From the NCBI RefSeq assembly GCF_946892675.1, contig NZ_CAMPOV010000001.1, positions 718,033-782,032 of the forward strand: 64,000 bases of DNA, written 5' to 3'. The notes under the pieces were generated by a model. The model saw nothing but the letters and a program-made list of their open reading frames with translations, ran no database searches and was not told the origin of the DNA. Below, one piece after another: positions 33,755-50,687 of this stretch; the first letter of the stretch is position 1; each line of letters begins with the position of its first letter. The position numbers were made by a program, and so were the translations under genes. Source of the DNA: Arthrobacter sp. Marseille-P9274. Its GTDB lineage: Bacteria; Actinomycetota; Actinomycetes; Actinomycetales; Micrococcaceae.

Positions 33755-34669
33755 CTACCGGTCCGCGCCGTACAGCTTCTTGCAAATCTCCTCGAAGGCC
33801 AAGGCCCGCCTGGTCGGCCGCAGTCCCGCCGGCCGAGCGATGACGACCTCGATCCCCGGCAGCTCGTCCACCAGCCGCAGCGGCACCACCTTGCCGCCCG
33901 AATACGTCAGGTCATGATGCAGCCGCTGGTTCAGCACTGAGTAGCCGTGTCCGCGCGCCACGAATGACCTGACAGTCTCGTAGCCCGACACCCGGTGCCG
34001 GATGTTCGGCGTGATGCCGGCGATCTGGAACAGCTGCAAGTAGTACTCGCGCGTATGGGGAAGGTCGAGCAGGATCATCGGCTCGTCCTGAAGCTCCCGC
34101 AGCGCCACTTCCCCGTCCGGATCCGCCGCCAGCGGATGCCCCTCGTGCACCAGCACATGCGGCGGCACCCGCTCCACCAACTGAGTGCTCACGCCGTCCA
34201 GCAGCCCCAGCGTGTACATCAGCGACACCTCGCAGCGCCCCTCGAGCAGCGACCGGCGCAGGAACTCTTGGTCACCCTCCAGGAAGGAAACCCGCACATC
34301 CGGATAGCGCTGTTCGAACGCCTGCAGGATCACCGGCGCCCGGAACGGAGCCAGCGGCGCGAACAACCCCACCTTGAGATCGCCAGTCAGGTTCTCCGAC
34401 ATTCCCCGCGCCGACTCATACAGCGAATCCGCATGCTCTAGGAACGCCGGCAGCTCCTTCGCGAACTCCCGCCCGGCAGGGCTCAGCTTCAACCCCCGCT
34501 GCGGCAGCCGGATGAACAGCTGCACCTCCAACTCCTGCTCCAGCTGCGAAATCGCATTCGATAACGCCGACTGGGTAATGCGCAGCCGCCGCGCCGCCGT
34601 CGTCATATTCTCCGTCTCCGCCACCACCGCGAAGTACCGCAGCTGGATCAGAGTAAAAGGCCTCGCCAT
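33755..34669 (-). CDS. LysR-type transcriptional regulator
   Basis: A 304-residue LTTR with an N-terminal helix-turn-helix (FTLIQLRYFAVVAETENMTTAARRLRITQSALSNAISQLE, split here over residues 5-44) and an effector domain resembling CynR/CysB types (LKVGLFAPLAPFRAPVI near 95). It is upstream of, and on the same strand as, the transporter/M20/amidase genes and probably regulates them. It is the last gene of the high-GC metabolic part; the compositional change begins about 70 bp before its start. Confidence 0.9.
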   Translation of the reverse strand: MARPFTLIQLRYFAVVAETENMTTAARRLRITQSALSNAISQLEQELEVQLFIRLPQRGLKLSPAGREFAKELPAFLEHADSLYESARGMSENLTGDLKVGLFAPLAPFRAPVILQAFEQRYPDVRVSFLEGDQEFLRRSLLEGRCEVSLMYTLGLLDGVSTQLVERVPPHVLVHEGHPLAADPDGEVALRELQDEPMILLDLPHTREYYLQLFQIAGITPNIRHRVSGYETVRSFVARGHGYSVLNQRLHHDLTYSGGKVVPLRLVDELPGIEVVIARPAGLRPTRRALAFEEICKKLYGADR

Positions 34670-34738: not shown

Positions 34739-35449
34739 CTATTTGACGATGTCGCCCAATCCGAGACCGACGGTTGCGCTGATGCTCCGCGAGTTGCCTT
34801 TGAATAGCTTGTAGAGATCGGTTGGCCGGCTATCGCGCCGATAAAGCATGCCATCATCATTCAGGACCAGTTCAGGTCGTCCATCTTTTCGGCGCAGCAT
34901 CCAATGCCTGGCGATAGACCCATCAAGGTAAGAAGAGTCGCTTCTCTCAGTGTCCAGCTCGATTCCTGGAAACTGGGTAACGAACTTCTTCTTTCCCTCG
35001 TCATCGCAAAACGCTTCTTCGAGGCAATGAGCGTCCCAAGGCTTCCTGGCGTTCATACTTTGGAGCAGGATATTTGTTATGACGCGGTAACAAAGCAAGC
35101 GAGCTGTTGTTGTTGACGTGCTATTGGGCGCCTTCAAACCCATCAGATCTTCAAGGTGTTCGATGAACTCGAACGAATCACGGGAAAACGCCTCAGCCCA
35201 ACCAAAACTTCCGGGACGCGCCCCATGACCCACATGAATGCTGCCGTTGCGGTTGAGATGTACGGCAGTCACGTTCACACGGTCATCGTGCAGCCCGAGG
35301 CAGTCGTACATGCCTCCTCCCGGATGAGTTTCGACGATGCGAAACTGCGGATGCCGTCTGCAGAGCTCAGTGGCAATCCACCAGGACTGCGGCCTGATTA
35401 GCCTGTGGCTGAACGAAAGCCCTTCAACCATGCTGGTCATAGTTGTCAT
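34739..35449 (-). CDS. Putative TY-Chap2-like peptide-binding chaperone
   Basis: A 236-residue soluble protein. The N-terminal part (SWWIATELCRRHPQFR, then ETHPGGGMYDCLGL, residues about 22-53) resembles the TY-Chap2 family, a YbjN/CesT-like fold annotated as a putative peptide chaperone and often seen near conflict systems; this is from memory of the family and needs a profile search. The C-terminal half (MLRRKDGRPELVLNDDGMLYRR) has no feature I recognise. It starts 38 bp after the HelD-like gene and is the last member of the leftward four-gene set. AGGTG precedes the ATG at 35449. Confidence 0.55.
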   Translation of the reverse strand: MTTMTSMVEGLSFSHRLIRPQSWWIATELCRRHPQFRIVETHPGGGMYDCLGLHDDRVNVTAVHLNRNGSIHVGHGARPGSFGWAEAFSRDSFEFIEHLEDLMGLKAPNSTSTTTARLLCYRVITNILLQSMNARKPWDAHCLEEAFCDDEGKKKFVTQFPGIELDTERSDSSYLDGSIARHWMLRRKDGRPELVLNDDGMLYRRDSRPTDLYKLFKGNSRSISATVGLGLGDIVK

Positions 35450-35487
35450 ATCTACACCTGTCGATAGTGGCTGGCCGCCCGAATCTG

Positions 35488-37821
35488 CTACTTGTGATCC
35501 TGCATGATGCGCTCCAACTCCGCGATAACGGCATCGAAAAGCTTCGGTTGCACACTCGACAAAATTTGTTCAGCCAGAAGCTGCGCAGCGCCTTCAGCAA
35601 TCTTCTGTTCCAGAGGTTCCAGCTTCACGACAGTTCGCTCGGTCCGACTCTGGATCGGTGTCTCCCACAGCCTCGTAGGCTCCGGCTCACCTTCGTCTTT
35701 TTTGACGGCCTCCGCTTCTTCATCCGCCAGTCCTTTGTCCTGGTTCGATTCATCTCCAGCAGAGTCAGGTGTCTCCGATTCTTTGTCACCGGCAACTGGT
35801 GCTCCGCTCAGCAACCGAGGAAGCCGGCCCTCGGGGTAAACGATGTCGAGCCTAGTAGTAGTTCGAGTCAAAGCGATGTAGAGCATTCGATCGCCGTGAT
35901 GCATATCCAATATTGCTTGCGGATCGACGACAATGACAGCGTCGAACTCCAGACCTTTAGAGTCTTCAGGAGTAACTAGGTTTATAGCATTGCTTAGGTC
36001 ACCTGAAGTCGATTCACTCCACTGAATGTCCTGGCTGGAAAAGGCTTTCCGGATTACCTCCCACTGTTCCGCGACAGCGATAACTCCGACAAAGCGACCT
36101 TTACCACTGTGATGAGTAACAATTTTTGCGACTTCGGTGGGAAGGTCCTCGGTATCGATACCGGTGAATTCTGGATCGGCACCAGCCGAGCGTACGATTT
36201 CCGGCGCGCTCACGGTTGGTGCCGCCACTTCAAGGACAGGCCGAGCAACTTCAAATACTTCTGCGGGAACACGATACCCGTGTTCGAGTTCCACCAATTC
36301 CGTCGGGAGGTTCGATTTAAGCAGAGTCTTCGCACTGTCCCAAGAATCGGTCGCGTAAGGACCGGTGGATTGAGCGATATCACCGACGACTGTCATGGAC
36401 CCATCGCGGGACCTACGGCGAATGGCCATTAGCTGCATCTCGGATAAATCCTGCGCCTCATCGACGACAATGTGGGAGTAGATCTCTGACTCTCCACGAA
36501 GGAGTTCCGTGGCCTCGTCCATCAGCGCCAGGTCAGCCAACGTCCACGGCTCATCCGCGATTCGTCTTGCCATCGGCCTATGAAGCATTCCGACCTCCGA
36601 AGCCCGAAGCAGGTCGCCTGCGGCCTTGATGAGACGGTCCTTCGACCCCAGCAACTCGCGGACAAATTGCGGAGCATTGAGCTGCGGCCACATCGTATTG
36701 ACTGCGTCATTCAGGGAAACAGGATCCAAAAGATCCGCAGCAGCTTGCATTCCGCGTACGGGCAATTCTTGCCGCGCCATTTCAGTCAATGACTGGCGAA
36801 GTTTCGCACGGCCCTCAAGGTAAATCTCGCTCTTCAGTTCCTTGATTCGCTTAGCGAGTGGTTCGGCCGGAATCGACACATACAAACCGCTGTCACGTCG
36901 CTGGACTCTTACTGGCTCCTTCGGTTCCTTAATTCGGTCATCCAGAGCCGCCGCCAACACGTCGGCCATGACAGCTGATCCCTTCAGCGCTGCAACGTCA
37001 TCTGTTTCCATCGCAGACGAAGTAATGCCAGGCGCCAACAGGTCCTGTAGGGAGCGCTGAACTACGTCGTTGTCGCCCAAGTCTGGCAGGACACGGCGAA
37101 TGTAGCGTGTGAATGTCGGGTTGGGGCCAACGACCAATACATCCTCCGGATCCAGCTCTTCCTGATAATTGAAGAGGAGCCAGGACACGCGGTGCAGTGC
37201 TACGGCCGTTTTACCTGTACCGGGGCCGCCCTGCACGATCAACAGCCGGTCCTTTTCCGCTCGGACGATTTTGTCCTGGGCGGCTTGAATTGTCTTGACG
37301 ATGTCTGTCATTGAGCCGCTTCGCTTGCGGCTCAACGCTTTCAGAAGTTCGTCGTCCGGCTCGTCCCACCCCTCGAGCTCTGCGACAGCCGCTGCAAGCT
37401 CTTTGAATACTGTGTCTTCGAAATCCTGAATGCGGTTCTTAGGAGCATCAAACTTGCGCCGCCGGACCAAACCTTTTGGGTCCTTGGCTGTTGCTTGGTT
37501 ATAAGCAGCTGCGATTGGCGCCTGCCAGTTTACGACCAGAAGGTTTTTTTCGACGTCGAAAATGGGCGCCTTGCCAACGTAATAGGTCTCACCGTCTTCG
37601 AGATCGATGCGGCCGAAAGCCACCTCATCGTCCGAGGAGAAGGTTTGTTTTTTCTCCACGGCCCGTTTGAAGGCTCGGCGCTCAACCGCGGTTCCCGCAG
37701 ACCATTTATCCGCGCTCCATCCGTCCGTAGCGTGGTCTCGAGCGGCCTGCGCAGCGTCGAAATACTCCTGTTCCCGCCTGAGTTCTTCAATCTTGCTGCT
37801 TGCTATTTCCCCAACCGACAC
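35488..37821 (-). CDS. HelD-like UvrD-family SF1 helicase
   Basis: A 777-residue SF1A helicase related to HelD. An N-terminal coiled segment (SSKIEELRREQEYFDAAQAA) is followed by the HelD-type region FGRIDLEDGETYYVGKAPIF and NWQAPIAAAYNQAT, Walker A GGPGTGKTAVALHR near residue 199, Walker B VVDEAQDLSEMQ near 454, TPEDSKGLEFDAVIVVD near 645 and motif VI YIALTRTTTRLD near 670. HelD proteins normally free stalled RNA polymerase, and HelR relatives protect against rifamycins. Here the gene is embedded among defence genes, so a defence role is possible. I choose the GTG at 37821 because AGGGGAG lies five bases upstream; the earlier in-frame start at 37857 lacks one. Confidence 0.85.
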   Translation of the reverse strand: MSVGEIASSKIEELRREQEYFDAAQAARDHATDGWSADKWSAGTAVERRAFKRAVEKKQTFSSDDEVAFGRIDLEDGETYYVGKAPIFDVEKNLLVVNWQAPIAAAYNQATAKDPKGLVRRRKFDAPKNRIQDFEDTVFKELAAAVAELEGWDEPDDELLKALSRKRSGSMTDIVKTIQAAQDKIVRAEKDRLLIVQGGPGTGKTAVALHRVSWLLFNYQEELDPEDVLVVGPNPTFTRYIRRVLPDLGDNDVVQRSLQDLLAPGITSSAMETDDVAALKGSAVMADVLAAALDDRIKEPKEPVRVQRRDSGLYVSIPAEPLAKRIKELKSEIYLEGRAKLRQSLTEMARQELPVRGMQAAADLLDPVSLNDAVNTMWPQLNAPQFVRELLGSKDRLIKAAGDLLRASEVGMLHRPMARRIADEPWTLADLALMDEATELLRGESEIYSHIVVDEAQDLSEMQLMAIRRRSRDGSMTVVGDIAQSTGPYATDSWDSAKTLLKSNLPTELVELEHGYRVPAEVFEVARPVLEVAAPTVSAPEIVRSAGADPEFTGIDTEDLPTEVAKIVTHHSGKGRFVGVIAVAEQWEVIRKAFSSQDIQWSESTSGDLSNAINLVTPEDSKGLEFDAVIVVDPQAILDMHHGDRMLYIALTRTTTRLDIVYPEGRLPRLLSGAPVAGDKESETPDSAGDESNQDKGLADEEAEAVKKDEGEPEPTRLWETPIQSRTERTVVKLEPLEQKIAEGAAQLLAEQILSSVQPKLFDAVIAELERIMQDHK

Positions 37822-37919
37822 TGAAACTCCCCTAACTAACCGCGCCGATGCAGCCATGAGCTGCGTTTTAAACAGTAGCGGCGACCGCCGACATTATTCC
37901 GAGACTGACCGGTGACGGT

Positions 37920-40900
37920 TCAGGCTACAAAGTAGTTGCCGCTGTCGTCTTTGACGCACCGGCGGTTTTTCACGACTTTGAACAGTGCTTTTTGGACCGC
38001 AGTTTGGATATCGTTTCCCGAACGGTTCCAGCCGAAAATACCCCGAACGGTCTGCTTGATCTGTTCCTCATTGGCGAAGACAGCATCAGCAACCACTCTC
38101 ACGACGGCTTCTTCGATCTCTTCCGGTGGAATGAGGTTCACTTTGCGGATGTCACCGTCGTCATCTGGTGTACGAACCGGTGTTGATTCATCTCCCGGAA
38201 CCCTAACAAATCCGTCTGCATAGACCTTCGCCCTAGAACCGTTGACGCGCGCCATCCCTAGAGCTTGACGCACGTTCTTCTGAATCTGCGATCCCGCACG
38301 GCCGACGCCCCAGTCTGCCTTCACTCGTTCCAGCACGGTATCCACATGCACAGGGGCCTCGACAGAGAGCACAGCGGAGCAGTAAGAGATCAGATCAGGG
38401 AGTGCATCTACCTTACCGGGCTCGTATCTATACGACTCATCGCGCTGACTGTACTTTCGATAGGGCACGGTCCATTCGGGAGCAGCCTCTAAGTCTACTT
38501 CTTGGTATTCAAGCTGTTCCATCGGCTCGACCTTGGCCGTTTTTGGCTGGGTTTTCGGCTGATCGGCAGCTCGAATGGCCTGCTGGATAGCCGCCTTCAA
38601 CCGTTCCTCCTGCGTCGCCCTGTCGCGGTACCAGCTGATTCCCCAGATCCTGTGGATTTCCCAGCCGAGTCCCCGAAGCACCGACTCCCGCAAACGATCT
38701 CGGTCGCGGGCAGTCTTAGCGGAATGGTAGGCAGCGCCGTCGCATTCCACGCCGAGCACGAAGCGGCCTGGCTGGTCTGGATGAGGTACCCCGATATCGA
38801 TGCGGTAACCAGCCGAGCCCACCTGAGAAACCGCACCATAGCCCCAGGACCGAATGGTTCGAACGACTTCCTCCTCAAACGGACTCTCAACATCGCCCAC
38901 GCTTCCTGACATATCCTCAGCGAGAGCGGAATGGCCTCGTTCAGCGAAATCCAAGTAGTTCTTCAGATGCCTGTTTCCGTCCGAGCCTGTCTCCTGCATG
39001 TCGCTCGAGCGGAAGGAACTGACAATCTCGACGCGCCGGCGGGCACGAGTTATGGCAACGTTGAGTCGACGTTCGCCGCCCTTCTTAGTCAACGGACCAA
39101 ACATCATCGTGAATTTTCCATGCTCATCAGGGCCGTAGCCAATGCTGAAGATGATGATGTCGCGCTCGTCGCCCTGAACGGATTCGAGGTTTTTGACGAA
39201 GAAACCGTGCAAGCGGTCGTGGTCCTCCATCAGACCACGCAACAACGGTTCAGTGTCCACACGCCGCTCAATGGCGTCGGAGACTGCATCTGCCTGCGCT
39301 GTCGAGAAGGTGACTACACCGAGCGAAAGGTCGCTGTTGTTTCGCCGGTGCTCGACGATCCGGTCAACTACCCTCTCTGCTTCGATGGGGTTGGAACGGT
39401 CGCCACCGCGCCGATAGACTCCGTCGGCTACATATTCGTGATGAACGCCTAGGTCGCCGGCCTCATGCGTCGCCCCGGGGAAGGTGCTTAGTTTTCCCTC
39501 ATAGAACCTATAGTTCGAGTAAGTGATCAAGTCCTCGTGCCGGCTCCGGTAGTGCCAGGTCAATGGCAGCGAAGGCAGTGAGCCTGATGCCTTGCAGAGG
39601 TCAAGAACACTGTCGAAGTCGTCCGGCGCCTCTTCGTCTTCACTCTCCGCGTCAGCGGAGGCGAAGAAACGAGTTGGCGGCAGCTGCTTCTGGTCGCCGG
39701 CCACCATCAGCTGTCGTCCGCGATAGATGCAGTTCACGGCGTCCGCCGGCATTACCTGGGAAGCCTCGTCAAAGATAACGACGTCGAACTTAAGCTCTGA
39801 AGGCAGGTACTGTGAGACCGAGAGCGGACTCATCATAAAGCAGGGCTTCAAGGCCTGTGCGAGTCCCGCGGTTTCTGCCAGTAACCTCCGAATTGGCTTA
39901 TGCCTCGTCTTCTTATTGGCCTCGTGGGCTATGACTGCGGCCGGACCTGCGTTCGAACGCGGCCGTCGTGCTGCGCAGGCAGTGACAACAGCGCTGAAGG
40001 CTTCTTGCACGAGTCGGTTGTCGAGTTCTTGAAATGAGCCAACTAGCTGATCTCGGTTATCGGCACGGTGGGACTTGAGTCGTTCGTCGACCCCGATGAC
40101 GGATTCGGCCCATGGCTCCAATGCAGCGCGTTCGACGGCGTCGCAAACTTCGGCTGCGGGTGCGGCTTTAGCCTCTAACGCCGGAATGACGTCCGACATG
40201 CCTTCCCTGGCCATGACGTTGGTAAGGCGGCTGAATTCGAACCAGACGTCGATGTCCGTGGCTGCGCTGTCCGCCATCTCCTCGAGCAACGCATCTGCAG
40301 AGGACAACGACTCGTTAAGCGTGTTCTCGAGTTCAGTCCGTTGAACCGGCGCGAAAAAATCCAGCAGATTTTCCCTCGCGGCCCGCCATGTGTCCACAAG
40401 TCCAACCAAGGAATGGTCCTCCGGACGGAATTCTTCCAAAAAGGGCACCGCTGTGGCGTCCAGCGGCGCCTTCACGACGTCGCGTACTTCGCGGCACCAT
40501 TTCCGGTCGGCGTCGGTCTCGTCCCAGTCTGTCTCGAACCGCTGGTAGCGGGAGCCGATAAGCTCCGCATCATCCGTAGCGGCAGCCTCAACTGCTGCTT
40601 CCAGTTCATGCAGCATGCCGATCTTGCCGATTCCCTCGACACAAGCATGCAGTGTAAGACCTGAACCGCCCATCGCTTCCAACCGCTCGCGTTCCGCTGA
40701 GGAGTTGGACAAGCGCTCCGCCACCTGTCCTAGAAGGGTCAGGACCTCGGGCAGCGGCAGAGTGTAGAGCGCACTCCCGTACTCGGAATGCAGAAGTGAC
40801 CGGACTTCTTCACGGACGCTGCTCAGTTGCTCTTCAGCACGGTCCGCGGTGGGGATGAGGTCGAACTCAGGCTCAGTGCCCCTGGCGATTTGAGAAGCCA

Positions 40901-43415
40901 GAGCGCCTGGCGCAATGTCTTGGCCAGCCAACCGGATAGCTTCCCGTGCAACTTCGAGGGCGGCGCTAAGCCGGCCGAAGTCCGTACTGGTCCCGTGATA
41001 ATACTCGCCTAGACGTGGCGAATACTCCGTTTCACCACTGCTCAAATCCCGTTGTGCCTGCTGCCAGGCCAAGGCTTCATCCAACCTCGCAATGATTTCC
41101 TTGCCGGCGCCGCCGCTCTGCGTCACTCCCCGCAGCGTCTTCTTGTCCTCCCGCGCTTGTTTGCTCCAAACCTTGAAGCCCTTGCGCTCGGCGAAGCGGA
41201 CCTTCAGACCTACCAAGTCGAGGTCCAATACTTCCGGCTTGAAAACGGAATTCAGAGTCTCTTCGCGTTCGCGCACCATGGCGGTCAAATTGTCGAGGAC
41301 TCGGGCGCTCTCATCCAGCGCTCCCTGCACACTCGGGTTCAACCAGTTGGCCTCCGGCAGATTCCCCGACTGGGACAACCGTGCCAGGGCGATCAAAGCT
41401 TGCAGTCTGCCCATCGAAACAGTGTCAGGATCGACCTTGAACAGCTTGCCGAGCTTTCCTGCTATCTCGGCCAGCTGACCAAAATTCTGAATGAGCCCGC
41501 GGAGGTTGCCTGCGGCTTCTTTGATATCGACGACTGTCATGTCGCCCAATGCTTCGGGGAATACATTTGGGTCCGCGGCCATCGCGTTTCCCAGAGCATC
41601 GAAAAGTTGACGGTCCTCTGACCTCCAAGCAGCCCCGAAATTCGCGGCAATCTCTTCGATCGCAGTTAGCCGTTCATTGGTGATCCGGCGCAGCTCGATG
41701 ACCCGACGGTCCAACTCATCGAGTTGATCAATGGTCCACCAAGAAGCAGGAACGAAACGTCCTACGCCATAGACCTTGAGCACTTCGAGGCGTTGCCGAA
41801 GTCCGTCGTCATTCAGATCGAAGTCCCTGAACGGCAGAGACGAGTCGAAAAACTGTGCGGCGTCTACCACACCGCTGACGGCCTTTGCGGCCGCCAGAGC
41901 AGCATCCTCGGCATTCTTGCGGTCGCTCATCGACATCAATTCGCCTCGCAGTCCGCGCCATAGGAAGGCATCGCCATCTTCGGCGGGTCGCCAAACGCCC
42001 GCAAGCTGAATCGCATGTTCCAAGAGCATGGCAAGCTGCTCAGCGCTCAGCTCGGAGAACGTATCTTTATCACCTGTGGGATAGTTCTCGACGCCGGTGA
42101 GCTGGGACAGTCGGCCGAGTACGTCATGCAGAGATCTTCCCAGCGGTCGACGAACCTCGTTCATGGCCTGCGCGTATGCACTCAACTCTGAACGCGTCTG
42201 CCCGAGCCGTTTCTGCTCCACGGCTCCGAACGATTCGCGAGCAACGGGTTTTTTGAGTAGTTCCGCGTGTAAGGTCTGCACGACCTGTTTGCGGGTTGCC
42301 TTGTGACTGTGCAGCTCGAGCAGGAAGGGATCCAGGTTTCGGGCTGCAAGGCGGTCACGCACCACGTCAAGGGCCGCTGCTTTCTCGGATACGAACAGCA
42401 CGCTCTTTCCGGTAGCCATTAGCTCAGCAATGATGTTGGCGATTGTCTGGCTCTTACCCGTACCAGGAGGACCATCCATGACAAAGCTACTGCCGTCGCG
42501 TGCTGCAATCACACAACGACGCTGGCTGCCGTCTGCGTCCAGGATACTGTGGAGATTCTCCGGCGCGATGACAGTATCGAGCTGCTCGTCAGACGGTGGC
42601 TCATAGGCGAAGGAACCGGCGCTCGGCGCCTCGGGACCGAGAGAGAGCAGCTGGATGAGGTCGCTGCTGATAATCGTGTCTTCGTTCTGCTCCAGGTCCT
42701 TATACATCGCCTCTTTGTGGAAGCTGAAGGGCATAAGGATGGCCCGCGAATCCACTGTCCATGTCGGCTGGCCGCTCGTGGCCTGTAAGACACGCTCGGC
42801 TACGTCGACGATCGAAACGTCGTCGTCGTCAAAGTCCGGCAGCTCAATTCCGAAGTCCCGGCTCATCTTCAACGACAGAGCGGTATTGAGGAAGGGCTCG
42901 TCGTCCGTGCGCCCAAGGACATACACCTGCCCGGCCTTGGTGAGGCGGACGGGCACCATCAGGAGTGGGCTACTGACCTTCTTTTTGTCGGCTGGATCAA
43001 CCCAGGTAAGCATGCCGAGTCCCAGATAAAGAACCCAGATGCCTTTGTCTGCGTACTCCTGTTCCGACCGTTGGTGCAGCCGCTTACACGTCGACACGAT
43101 CTGCTGGTTTGTCTTGCTTCGGACACGAAAGACCCGGTTTTCGTCGATCGCTGGGAGTCCGAGGTCGACTGCAGTGTCGCCTTCGCCCTCTTCTGACTCC
43201 TCTGCACGCAAATGGACGGTACCAGTGCGGACCAACTGTTCAATGCCCACCATGCCCGGCTCAATGATTTCGAAAGACCCGCTCTTGGGGTGTGAAAAGT
43301 AGACGAGCTTCTGACGCCTGTCGATTGACAGCAAGTCCTCCCGCCATGCCCGCATTTGGGCAAGAAGCTTTTTGCGAGCATCGGTGCTCAATCGGGCACT
43401 TGGCGCTGACCCCAC
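37920..43415 (-). CDS. Giant DUF4011 / SF1 helicase / Vsr-like nuclease protein
   Basis: An 1831-residue protein. The N-terminal ~300 residues correspond to DUF4011 (WREDLLSIDRRQKLVYF). An Upf1-like SF1 helicase follows, with Walker A GPPGTGKSQTIAN near residue 313, a roughly 850-residue helical insertion, motif II IFDEASQVMPADA near 1208, motif V-like QGDERDIIIFS and motif VI NVAITRARRRVEI near 1430. Residues about 1500-1610 are a PD-(D/E)xK nuclease of the Vsr/MTES_1575 type (SPFEEEVVRTI, RIDIGVPHP, GVECDGAAYH). The tail has two DUF3320-like helical repeats (IQKNVRQALGM; IQTAVQKALFKV). The start is the GTG at 43415 with GGGGGA upstream. Proteins of this architecture are associated with defence against foreign DNA. 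It is the core of the leftward set. Confidence 0.85.
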   Translation of the reverse strand: MGSAPSARLSTDARKKLLAQMRAWREDLLSIDRRQKLVYFSHPKSGSFEIIEPGMVGIEQLVRTGTVHLRAEESEEGEGDTAVDLGLPAIDENRVFRVRSKTNQQIVSTCKRLHQRSEQEYADKGIWVLYLGLGMLTWVDPADKKKVSSPLLMVPVRLTKAGQVYVLGRTDDEPFLNTALSLKMSRDFGIELPDFDDDDVSIVDVAERVLQATSGQPTWTVDSRAILMPFSFHKEAMYKDLEQNEDTIISSDLIQLLSLGPEAPSAGSFAYEPPSDEQLDTVIAPENLHSILDADGSQRRCVIAARDGSSFVMDGPPGTGKSQTIANIIAELMATGKSVLFVSEKAAALDVVRDRLAARNLDPFLLELHSHKATRKQVVQTLHAELLKKPVARESFGAVEQKRLGQTRSELSAYAQAMNEVRRPLGRSLHDVLGRLSQLTGVENYPTGDKDTFSELSAEQLAMLLEHAIQLAGVWRPAEDGDAFLWRGLRGELMSMSDRKNAEDAALAAAKAVSGVVDAAQFFDSSLPFRDFDLNDDGLRQRLEVLKVYGVGRFVPASWWTIDQLDELDRRVIELRRITNERLTAIEEIAANFGAAWRSEDRQLFDALGNAMAADPNVFPEALGDMTVVDIKEAAGNLRGLIQNFGQLAEIAGKLGKLFKVDPDTVSMGRLQALIALARLSQSGNLPEANWLNPSVQGALDESARVLDNLTAMVREREETLNSVFKPEVLDLDLVGLKVRFAERKGFKVWSKQAREDKKTLRGVTQSGGAGKEIIARLDEALAWQQAQRDLSSGETEYSPRLGEYYHGTSTDFGRLSAALEVAREAIRLAGQDIAPGALASQIARGTEPEFDLIPTADRAEEQLSSVREEVRSLLHSEYGSALYTLPLPEVLTLLGQVAERLSNSSAERERLEAMGGSGLTLHACVEGIGKIGMLHELEAAVEAAATDDAELIGSRYQRFETDWDETDADRKWCREVRDVVKAPLDATAVPFLEEFRPEDHSLVGLVDTWRAARENLLDFFAPVQRTELENTLNESLSSADALLEEMADSAATDIDVWFEFSRLTNVMAREGMSDVIPALEAKAAPAAEVCDAVERAALEPWAESVIGVDERLKSHRADNRDQLVGSFQELDNRLVQEAFSAVVTACAARRPRSNAGPAAVIAHEANKKTRHKPIRRLLAETAGLAQALKPCFMMSPLSVSQYLPSELKFDVVIFDEASQVMPADAVNCIYRGRQLMVAGDQKQLPPTRFFASADAESEDEEAPDDFDSVLDLCKASGSLPSLPLTWHYRSRHEDLITYSNYRFYEGKLSTFPGATHEAGDLGVHHEYVADGVYRRGGDRSNPIEAERVVDRIVEHRRNNSDLSLGVVTFSTAQADAVSDAIERRVDTEPLLRGLMEDHDRLHGFFVKNLESVQGDERDIIIFSIGYGPDEHGKFTMMFGPLTKKGGERRLNVAITRARRRVEIVSSFRSSDMQETGSDGNRHLKNYLDFAERGHSALAEDMSGSVGDVESPFEEEVVRTIRSWGYGAVSQVGSAGYRIDIGVPHPDQPGRFVLGVECDGAAYHSAKTARDRDRLRESVLRGLGWEIHRIWGISWYRDRATQEERLKAAIQQAIRAADQPKTQPKTAKVEPMEQLEYQEVDLEAAPEWTVPYRKYSQRDESYRYEPGKVDALPDLISYCSAVLSVEAPVHVDTVLERVKADWGVGRAGSQIQKNVRQALGMARVNGSRAKVYADGFVRVPGDESTPVRTPDDDGDIRKVNLIPPEEIEEAVVRVVADAVFANEEQIKQTVRGIFGWNRSGNDIQTAVQKALFKVVKNRRCVKDDSGNYFVA

Positions 43416-43512
43416 GAAATTCCCCCAACAGCTATAAAATAGTCTGTCAAATTCTACCTCGACTCTACCTAAACGTTTAAGTCCCAAAGGCGATCAATTG
43501 TGCGGCGATCCC

Positions 43513-44115
43513 CTAAGTGGAAACGCCCCAATCCTTGTCCAAAGATGCGAGTTCCGCGCGGACCTCGTATAGACCTTGGAGATGTTCCTCAATCCCCTCA
43601 GACATCGCATAACCCACCGCAAGTTTTTCCGCCGAGCGCACCCAATGACGAAGATCATTTGCAGATTGCAGCTGCATCTCTCGGGATACCTCCAGCACGG
43701 CTTTCAACCGCCCAGTTTCATCCGACCGCTCGAAGACCCGACCGATAGCTTCCAGCGCCCCCTCCTCGTCCTCTCCCAGATCCAGAGAATCGAATGCCAG
43801 GACCATGCGTTCCCCAACTGGCATCGCAAAAGCAACAGCCTGAGCCAGTTCCGGTGTCACCGTTACGAACCGGGCCAATCGCTGTCCTGCCTCAATGGCG
43901 TGGATTTCACGCTCGAGTTCGTCTCGCGTGCGCGCTGCTTTCGCCCTCACGTCATCAGCTTTGCGGACTAGTCGACGCAAGTCATTGGGCTCGAGCTCCA
44001 TCTCCACAGCGATATCGCGAACAGCTTCGTAGAAACTGGCTCCCTGTGCCTCGAGAGACTTGACAAGTCTGTACGCAAGAAGCGCGGGCTCCTCGACGTC
44101 TGAATACTTACTGAT
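43513..44115 (-). CDS. Orphan alpha-helical protein, apparent non-canonical ATC start
   Basis: About 200 residues of unknown family, almost entirely helical and highly charged (RRLVRKADDVRAKAARTRDE near 48-67), acidic overall. ATG/GTG/TTG starts in frame first occur at 44007, with no ribosome site. However, the frame stays open upstream to a TAA, and a good Shine-Dalgarno, TAAGGAG, sits five bases before an in-frame ATC at 44115. The extra 36 residues (SKYSDVEEPALLAYRLVKSL...) look like genuine amphipathic protein sequence continuous with the rest. I therefore annotate from 44115 and flag the start. It is the first gene of the leftward defence set. Confidence 0.65.
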   Translation of the reverse strand: MSKYSDVEEPALLAYRLVKSLEAQGASFYEAVRDIAVEMELEPNDLRRLVRKADDVRAKAARTRDELEREIHAIEAGQRLARFVTVTPELAQAVAFAMPVGERMVLAFDSLDLGEDEEGALEAIGRVFERSDETGRLKAVLEVSREMQLQSANDLRHWVRSAEKLAVGYAMSEGIEEHLQGLYEVRAELASLDKDWGVST

Positions 44116-44267
44116 CGGGACTCCTTAGAGTGACCGCGGGAACTGACGCCAGCGGTGGATGAAGCACGGACGTGCGAAAGGAACTTGATCGTACGGCACG
44201 AGCTCTTACACGCACGGCATTGTCTTTGGTTCCGCAGCATTGTGTTTCGAATTCGTATGATGGACTG
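44116..44267. promoter_or_regulatory. Divergent promoter region between the two defence blocks
   Basis: This 152-bp region drives the DUF4011 set leftward and the GmrSD/BREX set rightward. The rightward side has a clear TATGAT -10 at 44256-44261, six bases before the ATG at 44268, implying a leaderless mRNA. Directly abutting the -10 is the perfect palindrome CGAATTCG (44248-44255), a candidate operator. On the leftward side only the TAAGGAG ribosome site near 44121-44127 is certain; TACGAT is a weak -10 candidate. Confidence 0.55.
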
Positions 44268-44591
44268 ATGCAAGAAGCTGACAATTCCCTTTTTGATCTC
44301 CCCTCTGCCGAACCTCATGATGCCGGCGTCTCTGCAGAGCGCCCCATCTCAAGAGAGCAGATCTCAGCAGTCCGTTCCGCCTTTGAGCGCGCAGGCGTCA
44401 CAAGCCAGGAGAAACGCCAGCAGATTGTTATTAGCTGCACCATCCGACATGTAGATTCCCTCAGAGACCTTTACGCCAGGGACGTCCGCCCGATTCTGCG
44501 CCGTCTCGATGCTTATTCGCAGAGAGCCGGGGACACAACCGGCAGCGCTTGGGATAACCGCGAAGAAGACACATGGATCGATAAGCTCTGA
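44268..44591 (+). CDS. Orphan 107-residue protein upstream of GmrSD-like gene
   Basis: A 107-residue acidic protein I do not recognise. It is mostly helical: a disordered N-terminus (MQEADNSLFDLPSAEPHD), then helices around SREQISAVRSAFERAG and SLRDLYARDVRPILRRLD, and a polar tail ending DTWIDKL. No catalytic motif is evident. The ATG at 44268 sits exactly six bases after a TATGAT -10 and has no ribosome site, so translation is probably leaderless; a longer in-frame reading from 44172 would run through the promoter. The DUF262 gene starts 40 bp downstream in the same direction, so it may be an accessory, specificity or antidote subunit. Confidence 0.7.
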   Translation: MQEADNSLFDLPSAEPHDAGVSAERPISREQISAVRSAFERAGVTSQEKRQQIVISCTIRHVDSLRDLYARDVRPILRRLDAYSQRAGDTTGSAWDNREEDTWIDKL

Positions 44592-44631: not shown

Positions 44632-46344
44632 GTGGATGCACGTAACAGGTCACTGGACGACTGGTTTGCTCGGATCAGGACGGGACAGTTGCGACTACCA
44701 CGGTTTCAAAGATTCGAGGCCTGGAGCCACAATGAAGTAGCTGGCCTCGTCGAGACTGTTCTGCGGGGGCTCCCCTCAGGCGCGACCCTGATTCTCGAAG
44801 TCGGCGACCGAGAGCCGTTCGTCAGCAGGCCCTTGGAAAGCGCTCCAGTCCCTAGAGAACGAGTCACTGAGCATCTACTTGACGGACAGCAGCGGCTGAC
44901 AGCTTTGTGGCGCTCACTCCATGACAATTATCCGGACCGCAAGTATCTTCTTCGATTCGAGGAGGATGAGGAACACGGCGGAAGAGTCCCCGTCGTACTC
45001 GCTCAGAAACGCTGGACATGGCGTGGCACTACTTACCCGGTTTGGTGCGACAATCCTGCTGACACTTGGGACCGCGGATACATCCCCCTCCAACTGCTCA
45101 ACGAAGATTCTTCAAAGGCTCGTGCGTGGGCACGGCAAGCGTGCGACGACGACGCCGATATGGTCTGGGAGATTAGCGACAAGATAGCGAAACTGTCGGC
45201 AAGCGTGAAGTCATACAACGTGCCGTTCCTCAGCCTGCCGGTGACAACGCCAAAGGACGTTGCACTGGATGTCTTCATCAAGATGAACACCTCGTCCGTC
45301 CGTCTCAGTGCCTTCGACATCGTAGTAGCACAGCTGGAAGAGGCGATGGGCCAGTCACTGCACGACCTCGTGGATGATCTTCGGGCCCAGGTTCCTTCGC
45401 TGCATCGCTACGCAGACGCCGGCAATCTCGCCCTCGATGTGGCTGCCCTGCGATCAGACCGAGCTGCGGTCCAGCAAAGCTACCAAAAGCTCAATCTCAA
45501 GGAGGTCGGCGAGCAATGGGACGACATGGTAGCCGGCATCAAGTGGGCCATCGAATTCCTTGAGTCCGAGCGCGTCTTCGATGCGCAGCGGCTGCCTTCC
45601 ATCGTCGTGCTGCCCGTCCTTGCGGCAATCCACCAGCACTTGCCGCAGGCCTTGGATGCAGCTGGAAATGCCAGGCAGCTTATCCGGGCCTACATGTGGC
45701 GCGCGTTTCTTACCAGACGCTACGACCAGGCAGCTGGATCCCGTGCTCTCCAGGACTACCGTGGACTCAAGATGCTCTTGACAGGTGTCAGGGAATCACG
45801 CCCGGCCGCTGCCCCCATCTTCGACGAAGAAGTCACGCCGCTCCCCATCACTCAGGATTTGGTTGCCGCAGGATGGCCTAAAGGACGTGAAATTCTCGCG
45901 CGGGGAATCCTCGCAGTGTCTCTTCGGGCTGGAGCGCGCGATATAGCAGACGACCAGACTGTCACGGCGGCGCACCTGCAGTCCCGGGAGTACCACCACC
46001 TCTTTCCGGATGCCCTGCTTACGAAGATCGGCAACCTGGAGCCAAGCAAGTCGATGAGAGCACTCAACTGCGCTCTCATTACTTGGAGCACCAATCGAAC
46101 CATCTCGAGCAAGCCGCCGCTTGAATACCTCCAAGACCGGACAAGCAAGGCGGAGCTGGGCGAGACGGAGATCCAGTCACGCCTCGCCTCACATGTCATT
46201 CCCTACAACGACCTGGCAGTGGCAGGACCTTATAGCGAGTACGACGGCGACCAGGTCGCCAAGGATTATGAGCGGTTCCTGATTGCTCGAGCGGAGCTGA
46301 TGTTCCCGGTCATCCAGATCCTGTGCGCCGGCGGTCAGCCGTAG
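44632..46344 (+). CDS. GmrSD-type DUF262 / HNH endonuclease-like protein
   Basis: A 570-residue single-chain protein. The N-terminal DUF262 (GmrS-like, ParB-fold NTPase) domain shows LPRFQRFEAWSHNEVAGLVE near residue 23-42 and the signature HLLDGQQRLTALW near 81-93. The C-terminal part carries a DUF1524-like HNH core, REYHHLFPDALL near 452-463, followed by LNCALITWSTNRTI with the conserved asparagine. GmrSD enzymes are type IV restriction systems that cut modified phage DNA using nucleotide hydrolysis. The start is the GTG at 44632, about nine bases after GGGGGG. It lies 113 bp upstream of pglW in the same orientation, comparable to BrxU, the GmrSD-family partner of an Escherichia BREX locus. 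Confidence 0.82.
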   Translation: MDARNRSLDDWFARIRTGQLRLPRFQRFEAWSHNEVAGLVETVLRGLPSGATLILEVGDREPFVSRPLESAPVPRERVTEHLLDGQQRLTALWRSLHDNYPDRKYLLRFEEDEEHGGRVPVVLAQKRWTWRGTTYPVWCDNPADTWDRGYIPLQLLNEDSSKARAWARQACDDDADMVWEISDKIAKLSASVKSYNVPFLSLPVTTPKDVALDVFIKMNTSSVRLSAFDIVVAQLEEAMGQSLHDLVDDLRAQVPSLHRYADAGNLALDVAALRSDRAAVQQSYQKLNLKEVGEQWDDMVAGIKWAIEFLESERVFDAQRLPSIVVLPVLAAIHQHLPQALDAAGNARQLIRAYMWRAFLTRRYDQAAGSRALQDYRGLKMLLTGVRESRPAAAPIFDEEVTPLPITQDLVAAGWPKGREILARGILAVSLRAGARDIADDQTVTAAHLQSREYHHLFPDALLTKIGNLEPSKSMRALNCALITWSTNRTISSKPPLEYLQDRTSKAELGETEIQSRLASHVIPYNDLAVAGPYSEYDGDQVAKDYERFLIARAELMFPVIQILCAGGQP

Positions 46345-46457: not shown

Positions 46458-49400
46458 ATGAAAGCTGGTTCAAATCATTGGATCGAGATGGGTCCAGCGG
46501 CGACGCCGGCAGAGCAGTTGGCACTTGACCGGTTTCGTGAGCTCCTTCCGGACGACGGCGTAACCTACGCGTGGCCCAACGTCACATTCCTCAGCCAGGA
46601 CGGCCGTACCAATGAAGTAGACGTCCTCCTGCTGACCAAGCAGGGTCTGTTCGTCGTCGAGCTCAAGGGCTGGCATGGAACGATTTCCGGGAACCAGCAG
46701 AACTGGCAGCACATTGCGCCCAACGGTGTCCGCCGTTACGAACGCAATCCCTACATCCTTACCGAGGCCAAGGCCAAGAGGCTCGCAGGGCTGCTCAAAA
46801 TGAAGGCGCCCTCGAGTGCACAGAAGACAGTCCCGTTCGTCAAAGCCCTAGTTGTGTTCCACGGACAGGATTCCCAGATAAAGCTGGATGAACTAGGCCA
46901 AACCGGCGTCTTTGCCTTGGATGGCTACAGCGTCAAAGGACTTCACGGGAAATCGTTCTCTGATTTCCTCAAGGCACCTGTCCTCGACGAAAAGGCGCTC
47001 GTTGACTTGCAACGGTGTAAGCAAATCCGCGCGCTCCTTGAAGCCTCAGGGCTCAAACCGACTCCCAAGACAAGATTTGTCGGTCAGTATTCAATCGACA
47101 AGGCCGACCCCCTAGGCGAGGGGCCCAGCTGGCAGGACCTAAAGGCCGGCCACCCGGATTTGCCCGGCGTATACCGGCGTATCCGCCTGTTTGACATCGC
47201 GCCAGGTTCATCAGCTGCAGCACGGGCAGAAATCGAACAGTCTGCGCGCCGCGAGGTCAAAATGACCCAGGGCATTGTGCATGAGGGCATCGTAACTCCG
47301 ATGGAATTCCTCAATGACGCTGCCGGGCCAGCTCTGGTGTTTTCTTACGACGACGGCGAGCAGTCCCTGGAGGACTTCCTCGTCTCGGACGGTGCCTCTC
47401 TCGGTTTCGATGATCGGCTGAATCTCATCCGAAACATCGGCGAGACCCTGAGATTTGCCCACCGGCGCCACCTGCGCCACCGCACGCTGACCCCCAAACA
47501 GGTCTTTGTCCGCCGGGGCGGGACCTCTCTCCGTACGAAAATCCGGGACTGGTACACCGGATCCAAGTCACGCAGCACCGCCACAGCCACTGCGACCTAC
47601 ACGATGACGTCCATGGGAACCCAGGCACCCAAAGACCTCATCAGCCAGGGCTCCTGGACCTATCTGGCTCCCGAAACTTTGCGCGGGGGTCAGGACCTGC
47701 CAGACGTACCCCTCGACGTCTACGGCCTGGGTGCGCTTGCATATCTCATCCTCGGCAGTAAGGCGCCCGCTGCCACAATGGCCGAGCTGGAGAAAACGCT
47801 CAGCGAACAGGGCGGCTTGAGTCTGGCCAGCCACAACGACATTGCGGAGCCGTTCGTCGACGTCGTATACAACGCAACCCGGGCCGTCGAAAGTGATCGA
47901 ACGGCTAGCATCGATATCTTCTTGCAGCAGCTTGACGAAGCGATCGAGAAATTCACGGCTCCCGAACCCGGCGAAAAGCCGGTGGCCCCCAATCCACTCG
48001 ATGCAGGCCGCGGCAGCATCATTGGCGACCGGTTCGAAGTCAAGGCCCGACGCGGCAGCGGTTCCACAGGTGTCGCCTTCGAAGTGGATGACTATGCGAC
48101 AGAACGCGAAGGCGTCATCCTCAAGGTAGCCAAGGATGATTCGGCAGCATCCCGACTCCGCGTCGAAGCCGAAGTCATCCAAGCTCTTGACAGCCCGCGG
48201 ATCGTTAAGCTGATCGAAGGGCCCATTCATGTAGATGGCAAGACGGCTTTGATCTTGAGCGACGCAGGGGCTGAAACCCTGGCCTCTCGGATCGAGGCCG
48301 AGGGTCGCGCAACCATCGAGCAGCTGGAATCCTATGCTTCCGATCTGTTCGATGCGGTGGCCCACCTTGACGCGGCCGGGATCTTCCATCGGGATATCAA
48401 GCCTTCCAACCTCGGCATCAAACGCGACTCCAAAACCCGCAAGCCCAGGCTCGTCCTGTTTGACCTCTCGCTGGCGCGCGAACCTCTGACTGCCATCGAT
48501 TCGGGTACGCGGGGTTATCTCGATCCGTTCCTGGGGCAAGGCCGGAGGCGCCAGTACGATAAAGCCGCCGAGCTTTATTCGGTTGCGGTCACGCTGTTTG
48601 AAATGGCAACGGCGACCATGCCGTGGTGGTCGGAGGGTGACGCCTCGCCGGCGTCTGCCACAGACACCGTCGTCGTGGCAGACAGCCTATTCGAAGCCTC
48701 GGTGGCCAAGAATCTCGGGCAGTTCTTCACGAAGGCCCTGAACCCGGATTCGTTAAAGCGATTCCCGGATCTCGAATCACTGGCCCTCGCTTGGAGGGAG
48801 AACTTCAAAAACCTGGCAGGACCAAGTGGCGAGGAGGAGCCAGACAATCCGTCGTTGGACCGCCTTGCAGAGGCGGCGACACTCGACACTCCTCTCCCCC
48901 AATCGGGCCTCTCGGCTCGGGCGCTCTCCGCGGCCTCTAGGCTGGACGTCAGTACAGTCGGCGAACTACTCGGCACCTCACCGATGATCATTAACTCGAT
49001 CAGGGGCCAGGGCGAGCAAACGAGAAAAGAAATTCAGCGCCGTATCCGTGCCTGGAGATCACGCCTATTGTCTGCTGGAACAACTGGCCATCAGCACAGG
49101 CAACCCGCAGGTGAAGACCGGAGCATCGAAACCCTGCTGCAGTCGCTCGTTCCTACACCAACCAAGGTCAACGCGGCAGATGTCTTTACCCAACGGTTGT
49201 TGCTCGGCATTCCGACTGCTCGGCCCTCTGGAGCCTTGGATGATTTGGTAGTCACCGACACGCATTGGCCGACGGTCAAGGACCTGGCGAATGAGGTCGG
49301 AGTTACAAGCAGCCGTATTTCCCAGTTGGTGGACGGAGCAGCCAAACGCTGGTCTGGACGCAAAGACCTGCCTGCTGTCGTTGACGAAATATCCGAAATC

Positions 49401-50687
49401 ATTTCCGCTGAAGGCGGTGTGGCAGAACTTTCAGAGGTTGCCGCTGCACTGTTGGCTCGACACGGTTCGTCCGCGATCGGTTCAGGCCGTGCGCGCTTGG
49501 CTGCCGGGCTGGTCCGCGCTGCCTATGAAACTGATCTTCGCTCCACCGATCCACAGCTTTACATCAGGCGGGATCGGCAAACCGGCCGGGTCGTGGTGGC
49601 TGCTATGGCGGCAGTGGAAAAGTTCCGGCTGGACCCTGATCACCTCCTCGACTATGCCCAGCAGCTCGGCTCCAAAGCGGATGAACTCGTAATGGTGGTC
49701 AAAGACGCAGAAATCCCGCTTGTCGCGGGGGCAACGGCACGATCCGCTCTGCGTTCCATCGAAGACCACGGCCTCTCGCTGACTGACGAGCGAATCATTC
49801 GGCTGGCCGTCGCAGCCTCGAGCCGCACCGCGCTGTCCGGCCGAGGTGAGCTGTATGAGGTCAGCCTTCCTGCCGAGGAGGCAGTAGTCATTGCACTGCG
49901 GGAAGCAGTGGTGCGGGAGCTCTCCGAGCCCGGCCTGAGACGACGGGTCACCTCAAGGTTCCCCCTCATCACGGAAATCCCCAAACGGCCCGGGCTGGAT
50001 AAGTTGGTCCAACGTGCCTTGCCGGATATGCGATGGGACCAGAACCGCTATACCGTCGTTGACAAGCACGGCCAGACTTCGGTCGCAGGCTCCTCCACCT
50101 ACACCTTCATTGCTTCAGGATCGGTTTCCGAACTGGAGCGGAGGTTGCGGGACTCGCTGGACCGGAAGTCTGCATTGACACTCGCTGCACATCCGCGGGA
50201 CTACCTCAAAGCTGCTTCCACGCTCGCCCAGCGCTTTGGGGTGAAACGGATCGATATTGCCGCAGAGGTGCTCCGCGTAATCAAATCCACTGCCAGGCAA
50301 GCAGATGTCAGCTGGGAACTGGTGCTCCGCTCTGACTCCGAGCCGAAGTCATCGGGCGACTTTACCAACCTCACCCGATTGGCGCAGGCAGCAATCCGCC
50401 CGATGTGGGGTGAGATGATGCAGGTACCCGGTCCGGTGCTCTTGACCAATATTGGTCCATTGATCCGCTATGGCTTCGGTCCCGACGTCTCCAAACTTTT
50501 GGATCTCTCGCACCAACGCCCTGCGGCCCGTTGGATTCTAGCCCACCGGCGAGGGTACGACGAGACACCCAAGGTAGATGGCAAGCCGGTACCCATGGGC
50601 CCGGACGGGTGGATCGACATGCCGCGTAATCTTTCTGATCTGCTCACAACCAACGACCTCAACTCATCACGGAAGGAAACCGCATGA
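46458..50687 (+). CDS. pglW: BREX type 2 protein kinase PglW
   Basis: A 1409-residue protein. Residues about 15-180 form a NERD nuclease-like domain (NEVDVLLLTKQGLFVVELKG). A first kinase-like domain (about 230-500) is degenerate, with HRTLTPKQV near 340 in place of HRDLKPxN. A second kinase domain (about 520-790) keeps HRDIKPSN near 643 and LFDLS in place of DFG. Then come a helix-hairpin-helix region resembling the RNA polymerase alpha C-terminal fold (ARALSAASRLDVSTVGELLG near 820) and a long C-terminal region with winged-helix-like parts. In Streptomyces the Pgl system needs PglW kinase activity for phage resistance. The ATG follows GGGAGGGGG; pglX overlaps its stop by four bases. Confidence 0.92.
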   Translation: MKAGSNHWIEMGPAATPAEQLALDRFRELLPDDGVTYAWPNVTFLSQDGRTNEVDVLLLTKQGLFVVELKGWHGTISGNQQNWQHIAPNGVRRYERNPYILTEAKAKRLAGLLKMKAPSSAQKTVPFVKALVVFHGQDSQIKLDELGQTGVFALDGYSVKGLHGKSFSDFLKAPVLDEKALVDLQRCKQIRALLEASGLKPTPKTRFVGQYSIDKADPLGEGPSWQDLKAGHPDLPGVYRRIRLFDIAPGSSAAARAEIEQSARREVKMTQGIVHEGIVTPMEFLNDAAGPALVFSYDDGEQSLEDFLVSDGASLGFDDRLNLIRNIGETLRFAHRRHLRHRTLTPKQVFVRRGGTSLRTKIRDWYTGSKSRSTATATATYTMTSMGTQAPKDLISQGSWTYLAPETLRGGQDLPDVPLDVYGLGALAYLILGSKAPAATMAELEKTLSEQGGLSLASHNDIAEPFVDVVYNATRAVESDRTASIDIFLQQLDEAIEKFTAPEPGEKPVAPNPLDAGRGSIIGDRFEVKARRGSGSTGVAFEVDDYATEREGVILKVAKDDSAASRLRVEAEVIQALDSPRIVKLIEGPIHVDGKTALILSDAGAETLASRIEAEGRATIEQLESYASDLFDAVAHLDAAGIFHRDIKPSNLGIKRDSKTRKPRLVLFDLSLAREPLTAIDSGTRGYLDPFLGQGRRRQYDKAAELYSVAVTLFEMATATMPWWSEGDASPASATDTVVVADSLFEASVAKNLGQFFTKALNPDSLKRFPDLESLALAWRENFKNLAGPSGEEEPDNPSLDRLAEAATLDTPLPQSGLSARALSAASRLDVSTVGELLGTSPMIINSIRGQGEQTRKEIQRRIRAWRSRLLSAGTTGHQHRQPAGEDRSIETLLQSLVPTPTKVNAADVFTQRLLLGIPTARPSGALDDLVVTDTHWPTVKDLANEVGVTSSRISQLVDGAAKRWSGRKDLPAVVDEISEIISAEGGVAELSEVAAALLARHGSSAIGSGRARLAAGLVRAAYETDLRSTDPQLYIRRDRQTGRVVVAAMAAVEKFRLDPDHLLDYAQQLGSKADELVMVVKDAEIPLVAGATARSALRSIEDHGLSLTDERIIRLAVAASSRTALSGRGELYEVSLPAEEAVVIALREAVVRELSEPGLRRRVTSRFPLITEIPKRPGLDKLVQRALPDMRWDQNRYTVVDKHGQTSVAGSSTYTFIASGSVSELERRLRDSLDRKSALTLAAHPRDYLKAASTLAQRFGVKRIDIAAEVLRVIKSTARQADVSWELVLRSDSEPKSSGDFTNLTRLAQAAIRPMWGEMMQVPGPVLLTNIGPLIRYGFGPDVSKLLDLSHQRPAARWILAHRRGYDETPKVDGKPVPMGPDGWIDMPRNLSDLLTTNDLNSSRKETA

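Follow-up and report, generated by a model that had tools for sequence, protein, structure and literature searches.

The part of PMC8655204 available to us describes the DWR motif as absolutely conserved in HelD proteins, and reports up to five helD genes per organism in actinobacteria. TY-Chap2 has been described in the literature as part of ARG-centred conflict systems (available part of PMC9503650), in which ARG is found with an NrtR/WYL regulator, a phosphatase, ARPP and a chaperone in one neighbourhood. BREX-2 consists of PglW, PglX, PglY, PglZ, BrxD and BrxHI in that order. The ProA model (NF058533) and the PADLOC model PDC-S37 have in common the order DUF4011, SF1 helicase, MTES_1575 nuclease and DUF3320; a limited literature collection yielded no paper on ProA. 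Relatives of all of these meet in or directly beside the window, the whole 64,000-nucleotide stretch of Arthrobacter sp. Marseille-P9274 that was analysed, which contains the following features.

33755..34669, minus strand: LysR gene, the left boundary, whose orthologue likewise borders the BAB-32 and G303 islands
34739..35449, minus strand: TY-Chap2 protein (PF22553; 236 aa), in ARG-centred systems a predicted peptide-binding chaperone, with a 70% orthologue in BAB-32
35488..37857, minus strand: HelD-like SF1 translocase, 789 aa; its clade lacks PCh-loop and DWR and carries a C-terminal tail; best solved relative 6yxu
37920..43415, minus strand: ProA-like protein of 1831 aa from GTG, with the order DUF4011 - SF1 helicase - MTES_1575 nuclease - DUF3320 (PADLOC PDC-S37, NF058533, Pfam)
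43513..44115, minus strand: orphan helical ORF, outside the recurring set; 200 aa if read from ATC, 164 aa (43513-44007) if read from GTG at 44007
44172..44591, plus strand: small ORF before GmrSD, of doubtful coding status (coding score 0.023)
44632..46344, plus strand: GmrSD-family (DUF262) gene (PF03235, 68.1 bits)
46458..63998, plus strand: BREX-2 operon PglW-PglX-PglY-PglZ-BrxD-BrxHI, the last frame ending just beyond the window

The original prediction described four consecutive genes on one strand, separated by short gaps (38-98 bp) and neighboured by GmrSD and BREX-2. ORF analysis agrees: TY-Chap2, HelD-like, ProA-like and helical ORFs follow one another by coordinate, all leftward, with gaps of 38, 62 and 97 bp. 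The domains named there were all recovered by profiles (HelD-like, TY-Chap2, and DUF4011/SF1 with a Vsr-like nuclease that corresponds to the MTES_1575 REase), GmrSD_N was found, and the BREX-2 genes were confirmed. The ProA-like frame is open upstream to a TTG at 43487, which gives 1855 aa; a start at the GTG at 43415 gives 1831 aa. The 44115 end of the helical ORF requires a non-standard ATC start, which is preceded by a TAAGGAG-like site; the 36 extra codons score 0.214 per codon against 0.191 for the remainder, the best of 46 shadow ORFs reaching 0.175 per codon. Pfam, PADLOC and NCBIfam scans, at the limits applied, returned nothing for the small ORF at 44172..44591.

The four genes lie in a low-GC block of ~29.4 kb, bounded by LysR on one side and, on the other, by an ARG-ARPP-NrtR locus whose GC is host-like. 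Named genes of the block have a GC content of 53.7-59.9%, versus 65.7-70.9% in five flanking genes on both sides, so that the compositionally distinct, defence-rich island that had been proposed is borne out. The block is foreign and probably constitutes a composite defence island. In three congeners this chromosomal site is occupied by BREX-2, type 1 BREX or DISARM-type genes, and two of the three contain the ProA-HelD-TYChap2 arm. tRNA scans were negative for the window and for eight flanking loci, and promoter and terminator scans gave chance-level hits only.

The BREX-2 genes are present in the full canonical order. PglW matches NF033442 with 1203.7 bits, PglX, PglY, PglZ and BrxD are confirmed by plasmid BREX-2 relatives, and BrxHI is an Lhr-like helicase with a 692-aa frame in the genome; solved-structure searches with PglX and PglZ returned no match. 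The GmrSD-family protein weakly matches the DUF262 structure 7p9k. Three annotated BREX-2 plasmid loci (of 6 found; 35-40 kb, tblastn 1e-3) contain neither any of the four leftward genes nor GmrSD.

The ProA-like protein gives long matches to both models, with 1270.6 bits for PDC-S37 and 1188.2 bits for NF058533. The latter score falls under the curated equivalog cut-off of 1500, and the protein is not assigned to ProA proper; the PDC-S37 architecture is complete. Judged by these profiles, it is kin of a catalogued anti-phage helicase-nuclease. Two ProA relatives (L003 and L006, 5.8-10 kb available on either side) occur without HelD-like or TY-Chap2 genes. Viral contigs, searched for close relatives only, held nothing of use for this protein, and plasmid matches to ProA-like, HelD-like and TY-Chap2 were all below 60% identity among the matches listed.

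The HelD-like protein is closest to M. smegmatis HelD (Class II; 6yxu, E 4e-86) among solved structures, and aligns with it from residue 37 through the clamp-opening domain. Both have the UvrD-like motor, in which Walker A, DEAQ and motif VI are intact; here these read GGPGTGKT, VVDEAQDL and LYIALTRT. The PCh-loop (448-503 in M. smegmatis HelD), however, is absent, DWR is replaced by NWQ, and 123 residues follow motif VI, compared with ~20 in HelD. Scores against the NCBIfam HelD/HelR models are 371 bits (HelR, cut-off 1100), 337, 297 and 176 bits (cut-offs 1051, 750 and 419), all under threshold. In the tree the protein belongs to a clade of 17 Micrococcales proteins with support of 100/100. 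DWR is found in 0/17 clade rows, in 14/15 other rows (G338 excepted) and in 15/15 control rows; the PCh-loop is missing from 17/17 clade rows and present in 6/6 canonical and 15/15 control rows; and 89-614 residues follow motif VI in the clade, versus 17-41 in the 14 DWR-bearing rows. Loss of the PCh-loop as the sole clade marker was rejected, as the loop is likewise absent from G338 and from 8 short HelD rows that have DWR. By its residues, then, this is an unusual HelD branch with clean markers (no DWR, no PCh-loop, a long tail), for which the accessible portions of the HelD literature contain no description. Clade members were matched in 16/396 genomes of the order, own included.

The neighbourhoods of this clade were compared with those of canonical HelD. 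Defence genes adjoin 5/17 clade loci, the window being one of the five, versus 0/15 canonical loci (p=0.046), or 6/17 when G776 is counted (p=0.019); enrichment beside defence genes is thus marginal, and 11 or 12 of the 17 loci have no clear defence partner. The five partner types are mutually unrelated: ProA/BREX, Wadjet, Hma, Zac and a helicase-kinase pair. Same-strand neighbours include UvrD-PDDEXK and Wadjet JetD/JetC-like genes. At the Hma locus the order is HmaB-Orf5-HmaC-612 aa-HelD, with a final gap of 96 bp; at the Zac locus, ZacA-ZacB-ZacC-HelD, with zero gap; and at another same-strand locus HelD is followed, after 467 bp, by a UvrD-type helicase and then a Mad6/PglW-like kinase. 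The 94 neighbours at the 15 control loci (16 less L143, whose HelD was not recovered by the gene caller) yielded a single family, GlgB-type, in 2 members; controls yield fewer neighbours than the clade (94 per 15 versus 124 per 16 loci), partly through contig ends, and neighbours below 60 aa were excluded. Genes in fetched stretches were called by a simple codon-score caller that misses some, among them the BAB-32 TY-Chap2 and the own-genome ARPP, both recovered by genome search. The other HelD-clade loci (16/16; 12.9-20 kb fetched) are all without ProA and TY-Chap2.

TY-Chap2 is a clear family member (PF22553, 170 bits versus a cut-off of 27); its single-sequence AlphaFold model (pLDDT 39) is too poor for use. 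ARG with its phosphatase, ARPP and NrtR lie directly beyond the window end, and NrtR, ARPP-1, ARG with phosphatase and TY-Chap2 thereby share one island, as in the ARG-centred conflict systems of the available part of PMC9503650. Here, unlike in those systems, TY-Chap2 stands 29 kb from the ARG core, which is outside the window, with the BREX-2 operon in between. TY-Chap2 is found in 6/99 relatives, own included, all 6 of which have ARG+NrtR: within 0.5 kb in G002, G304 and G371, at 16 kb in G346, and in BAB-32 on separate contigs tied by the split ProA and HelD genes. Among the relatives, ARPP is present in 5/6 TY-Chap2 genomes versus 4/93 others (p=1e-5). A phylum-wide rule was rejected: of 396 genomes, 10 have TY-Chap2, 41 ARPP and 2 both (p=0.28). 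TY-Chap2 genes without ProA or HelD also exist in the stretches read.

Arthrobacter crystallopoietes BAB-32 is the only relative found with ProA, HelD and TY-Chap2 in order. Its trio occupies the same LysR/MFS site beside type 1 BREX (BrxA-BrxB-BrxC-PglX-PglZ-BrxL, then ProA, HelD, TY-Chap2, a NOV_C gene, LysR and MFS); GmrSD is absent, and so is the helical gene, including between BrxL and ProA. Amino acid identity is 94-98% for ProA, 95/84% for HelD and 70% for TY-Chap2, and nucleotide identity is similarly uneven along the arm (95%; 88.7 and 82.8%; 75.8%). The trio keeps its order and short gaps in two species, which speaks against a composite of separate modules and would allow a three-gene unit. 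The helical gene was found only in its own genome (1/99 relatives, 1/296 genomes), and no plasmid match and, on viral contigs searched for close relatives only, no viral relative was found. The 164-aa form reaches no family cut-off in profile scans, and the single-sequence AlphaFold model of the ORF is helical with low confidence (pLDDT 47).

The original prediction was right in that no named system with the exact gene set turned up in PADLOC and NCBIfam scans or literature searches, and that HelD-like and TY-Chap2 are not ordinary core genes, given the genome counts above. Its claim of a unit is wrong or unsupported: in the genomes searched, the four do not co-occur in order, a single other species has the trio, at an orthologous site, and ProA-like, HelD-like and TY-Chap2 are each seen apart. 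Such independent occurrence is what the original prediction itself had named as refuting it. A single four-gene system, suggested by short gaps, one strand and common composition, was rejected because the helical gene is found only in its own genome; its absence from BAB-32 agrees, and the idea is now highly improbable. A three-gene system, in which the helicase-nuclease would attack DNA, the HelD-like protein clear polymerase and the chaperone sense or stabilise a partner, with the helical gene as accessory or regulator, gains from the equal order, orientation and gaps in window and BAB-32 despite the BREX swap. It is nonetheless unlikely in view of the single orthologous site, the ProA relatives and HelD-clade loci that lack the other members, and the unequal divergence along the trio.

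The leftward set probably forms the left arm of a composite island, assembled from separate modules with different histories. Observed gene content, boundaries, the BREX-type swap, independent occurrence and HelD-clade features underlie this reading; all biochemical roles, and any cooperation, are proposed. The ProA-like module, from its domains and family, probably translocates along invading DNA and cleaves it. The second module would be a HelD-like SF1 motor whose clade may have entered defence loci on more than one occasion; judged by its ancestry, it probably targets RNA polymerase or transcription complexes, and might clear these off attacked or rescued DNA, or deny phage the polymerase. 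Contact with polymerase would have to differ from that of HelD because the active-site-entering loop and the DWR cage motif are missing. TY-Chap2 would pair, as a chaperone, with the ARG/NrtR side of the island, and the helical gene would be a strain-specific fourth module.

For the HelD-like protein itself, a rather doubtful option is that it is an ordinary HelD/HelR paralogue, serving RNA polymerase recycling and possibly rifamycin protection, and a chance passenger in the island. Homology over most of its length and the multiple actinobacterial helD genes (PMC8655204, part available) fit this; the low HelR score, the missing loop and DWR, and the marginal enrichment beside defence genes do not. 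Only tentatively, the branch may instead serve as an accessory that defence systems of unrelated kinds have in common (BREX/ProA, Hma, Zac, Wadjet and the UvrD-helicase with Mad6/PglW-like kinase) that acts on RNA polymerase during phage attack. Such an accessory would mean that defence operates via the transcription machinery and not through DNA alone. The supposed four-gene system gives way to a patchwork island, and, should the role of the HelD branch be borne out, several defence systems together would have RNA polymerase as their target or helper.

Four open reading frames were recovered in the window at the positions of the original prediction:

34739–35449, leftward, TY-Chap2
35488–37857, leftward, HelD-like protein
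37920–43415, leftward, ProA-like protein
43513–44115, leftward, helical protein

With the GTG at 43415 as the ProA-like start, the intergenic distances are 38, 62 and 97 bp. The helical frame attains 44115 from an ATC start only; this ATC is preceded by a TAAGGAG-like site, the 36 codons it adds are coding by score, and it is the likely start codon. Together with a GmrSD gene and a BREX-2 operon (PglW to BrxHI), the frames lie in a compositionally distinct island, as proposed, the named genes having 53.7–59.9% GC versus 65.7–70.9% in the flanks (five genes measured, spread over both sides). Because of this contrast, the block is delimited from TY-Chap2 through the end of BrxHI, ~29.4 kb of the genome.

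TY-Chap2 matches PF22553 at 170 bits (Pfam), and the best relative of the HelD-like protein among solved structures is Mycobacterium smegmatis HelD. The ProA-like protein consists of DUF4011, SF1 helicase, MTES_1575 nuclease and DUF3320 domains (Pfam), matches PDC-S37 at 1270.6 bits (PADLOC), and scores under the cut-off of the NCBIfam model NF058533. The 164-residue form of the helical protein matches no family above cut-off in Pfam, PADLOC or NCBIfam, and no relative was found among 98 other related genomes, 295 other genomes of the class, 72,556 plasmid records, or viral contigs (a search detecting close relatives only).

Queried with the ProA-like protein in a scan sensitive to close relatives only, genome contigs yielded five loci: two contigs of Arthrobacter crystallopoietes BAB-32, Arthrobacter sp. 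HY1533, and two MAGs. In the fetched stretches of HY1533 and a Brooklawnia MAG, ProA is accompanied by neither a HelD-like nor a TY-Chap2 gene; a third locus (L005) is truncated on the downstream side and carries no information on this point. Since ProA is found elsewhere without these two genes and no relative of the helical gene was seen in the collections searched, the gene set is not the new four-gene system that had been proposed.

BAB-32 carries a type 1 BREX (BrxA, BrxB, BrxC, PglX, PglZ, BrxL) followed by ProA, HelD, TY-Chap2, a NOV_C gene, LysR and MFS, spread over three contigs. Its PglZ (L064:5686–8012) is in two overlapping pieces, from a frameshift or a sequencing error. Because its LysR and MFS proteins share 94% and 96% identity with their counterparts here, the BAB-32 island represents the same site with a different BREX. 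Nucleotide identity to BAB-32 along 34739–43415 is 95% in ProA, 89% then 83% in HelD, and 76% in TY-Chap2; beyond this arm it is 88% in LysR and 94% in MFS. The drop along the arm may reflect exchange in patches or a fast-evolving TY-Chap2. In another genome (G303, locus L079, C1:392997–406056), the same LysR gene borders DrmA, DrmB and a methyltransferase, a DISARM-type locus; the shared boundary marks a defence hotspot in the genus.

The HelD-like protein passes from residue 447 to 520 of M. smegmatis HelD with three residues in between, a span covering the PCh-loop (448–503 in excerpts of PMC7749160). In a 32-protein alignment this segment has 94–104 residues in six canonical rows and 35–37 in the other 26. 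The DWR motif, termed absolutely conserved in HelD in excerpts of PMC8655204, is NWQ in the window's protein, and is present in 0 of 17 HelD-clade rows versus 14 of the 15 remaining ones. These 17 Micrococcales proteins form one side of a single branch (support 100/100). The protein of genome G338, on a long branch outside the clade, also lacks DWR and PCh-loop; its gene (L057) lies near BrxD-like, BrxHI-like, TerB_C, RNase T-TerD and RmuC genes and near a gene of 1510 aa that weakly matches ProA (DUF4011-type). One clade protein (G832, L135) has 1277 residues, ~614 of them past motif VI. Bacillus subtilis HelD also lacks the PCh-loop, though its N-terminal arm is longer (PMC7749160, excerpts), so a missing loop does not by itself have to abolish function.

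Several clade members adjoin defence genes. UvrD-PDDEXK, JetD and an SbcC-like gene lie upstream on the HelD strand in G310, with a NERD helicase on the opposite strand. The order is HmaB, Orf5, HmaC, a 612-aa gene and HelD in G1005 (last gap 96 bp), and ZacA, ZacB, ZacC and HelD in G851 (zero gap before HelD); in G783, HelD is followed after 467 bp by a UvrD-type helicase and then a Mad6/PglW-like kinase. The remaining 12 loci, including G776 with a possible defence gene on the opposite strand, gave 26 PADLOC families among 94 neighbours (1e-20). The 25 families listed are chiefly Snf2-type models (DpdE, ZorD, DrmD; one member each); mad3 matched two members, and WYL, HEAT-ARM_XIII, PDC-S02 and PDC-S43 each matched a single one. 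Only PDC-S02 was placed by locus (G776), so defence loci in the clade may be undercounted. The 15 canonical control loci, all with PCh-loop and DWR, gave one family among 94 neighbours (GlgB-type, two members); clade and control neighbours came from separate scans with different numbers. Defence-adjoining loci number 5/17 versus 0/15 (p = 0.046; p = 0.019 with G776 counted), a test biased towards the hypothesis because the five include the window's own locus, which raised the question.

Immediately to the right of the window (C1:782109–785336), the gene for the regulator NrtR diverges from ARPP-1 and from ARG fused with a phosphatase, at host-like GC; NERD/UvrD helicase and AddAB-like genes lie beyond. 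The ARG-centred systems predicted in PMC9503650 (section 3.8) combine a Nudix or WYL regulator with a phosphatase, ARPP and TY-Chap1/2/3 chaperones, occasionally joined by nucleases and helicases. TY-Chap2 occurs in 6 and ARPP in 9 of 99 relatives, five having both (p = 1e-5, from akin genomes and hence non-independent draws); in the sixth (G371), ARG, NrtR and a 123-aa gene lie between two TY-Chap2 matches. The TY-Chap2–ARPP link shows no excess over chance in a phylum genome sample. Given the ARG, NrtR and ARPP associations, TY-Chap2 is best read as ARG-side island equipment rather than a proven HelD partner. At L060:9438–11435 it is the C-terminal domain of a 665-aa protein adjoined by NrtR and a NOV_C gene; a NOV_C gene adjoins TY-Chap2 in BAB-32 as well.

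A recent survey of genes found next to BREX (PMC12839542, seen in part) describes many auxiliary nucleases, GmrSD among them; its main text has no mention of HelD, TY-Chap or Vsr, nor does PMC8655204 mention 'phage' or 'operon'. No description of a DWR-less HelD branch adjoining defence genes was found in the literature searched, most subscription papers lying outside its coverage. As judged from gene content, ProA would most likely travel along DNA and cut it, the HelD-like motor would work on transcription complexes, and TY-Chap2 would take care of modified or misfolded ARG-pathway proteins, with BREX-2 and GmrSD most likely operating in parallel. The DWR-less HelD branch may represent a functional class.
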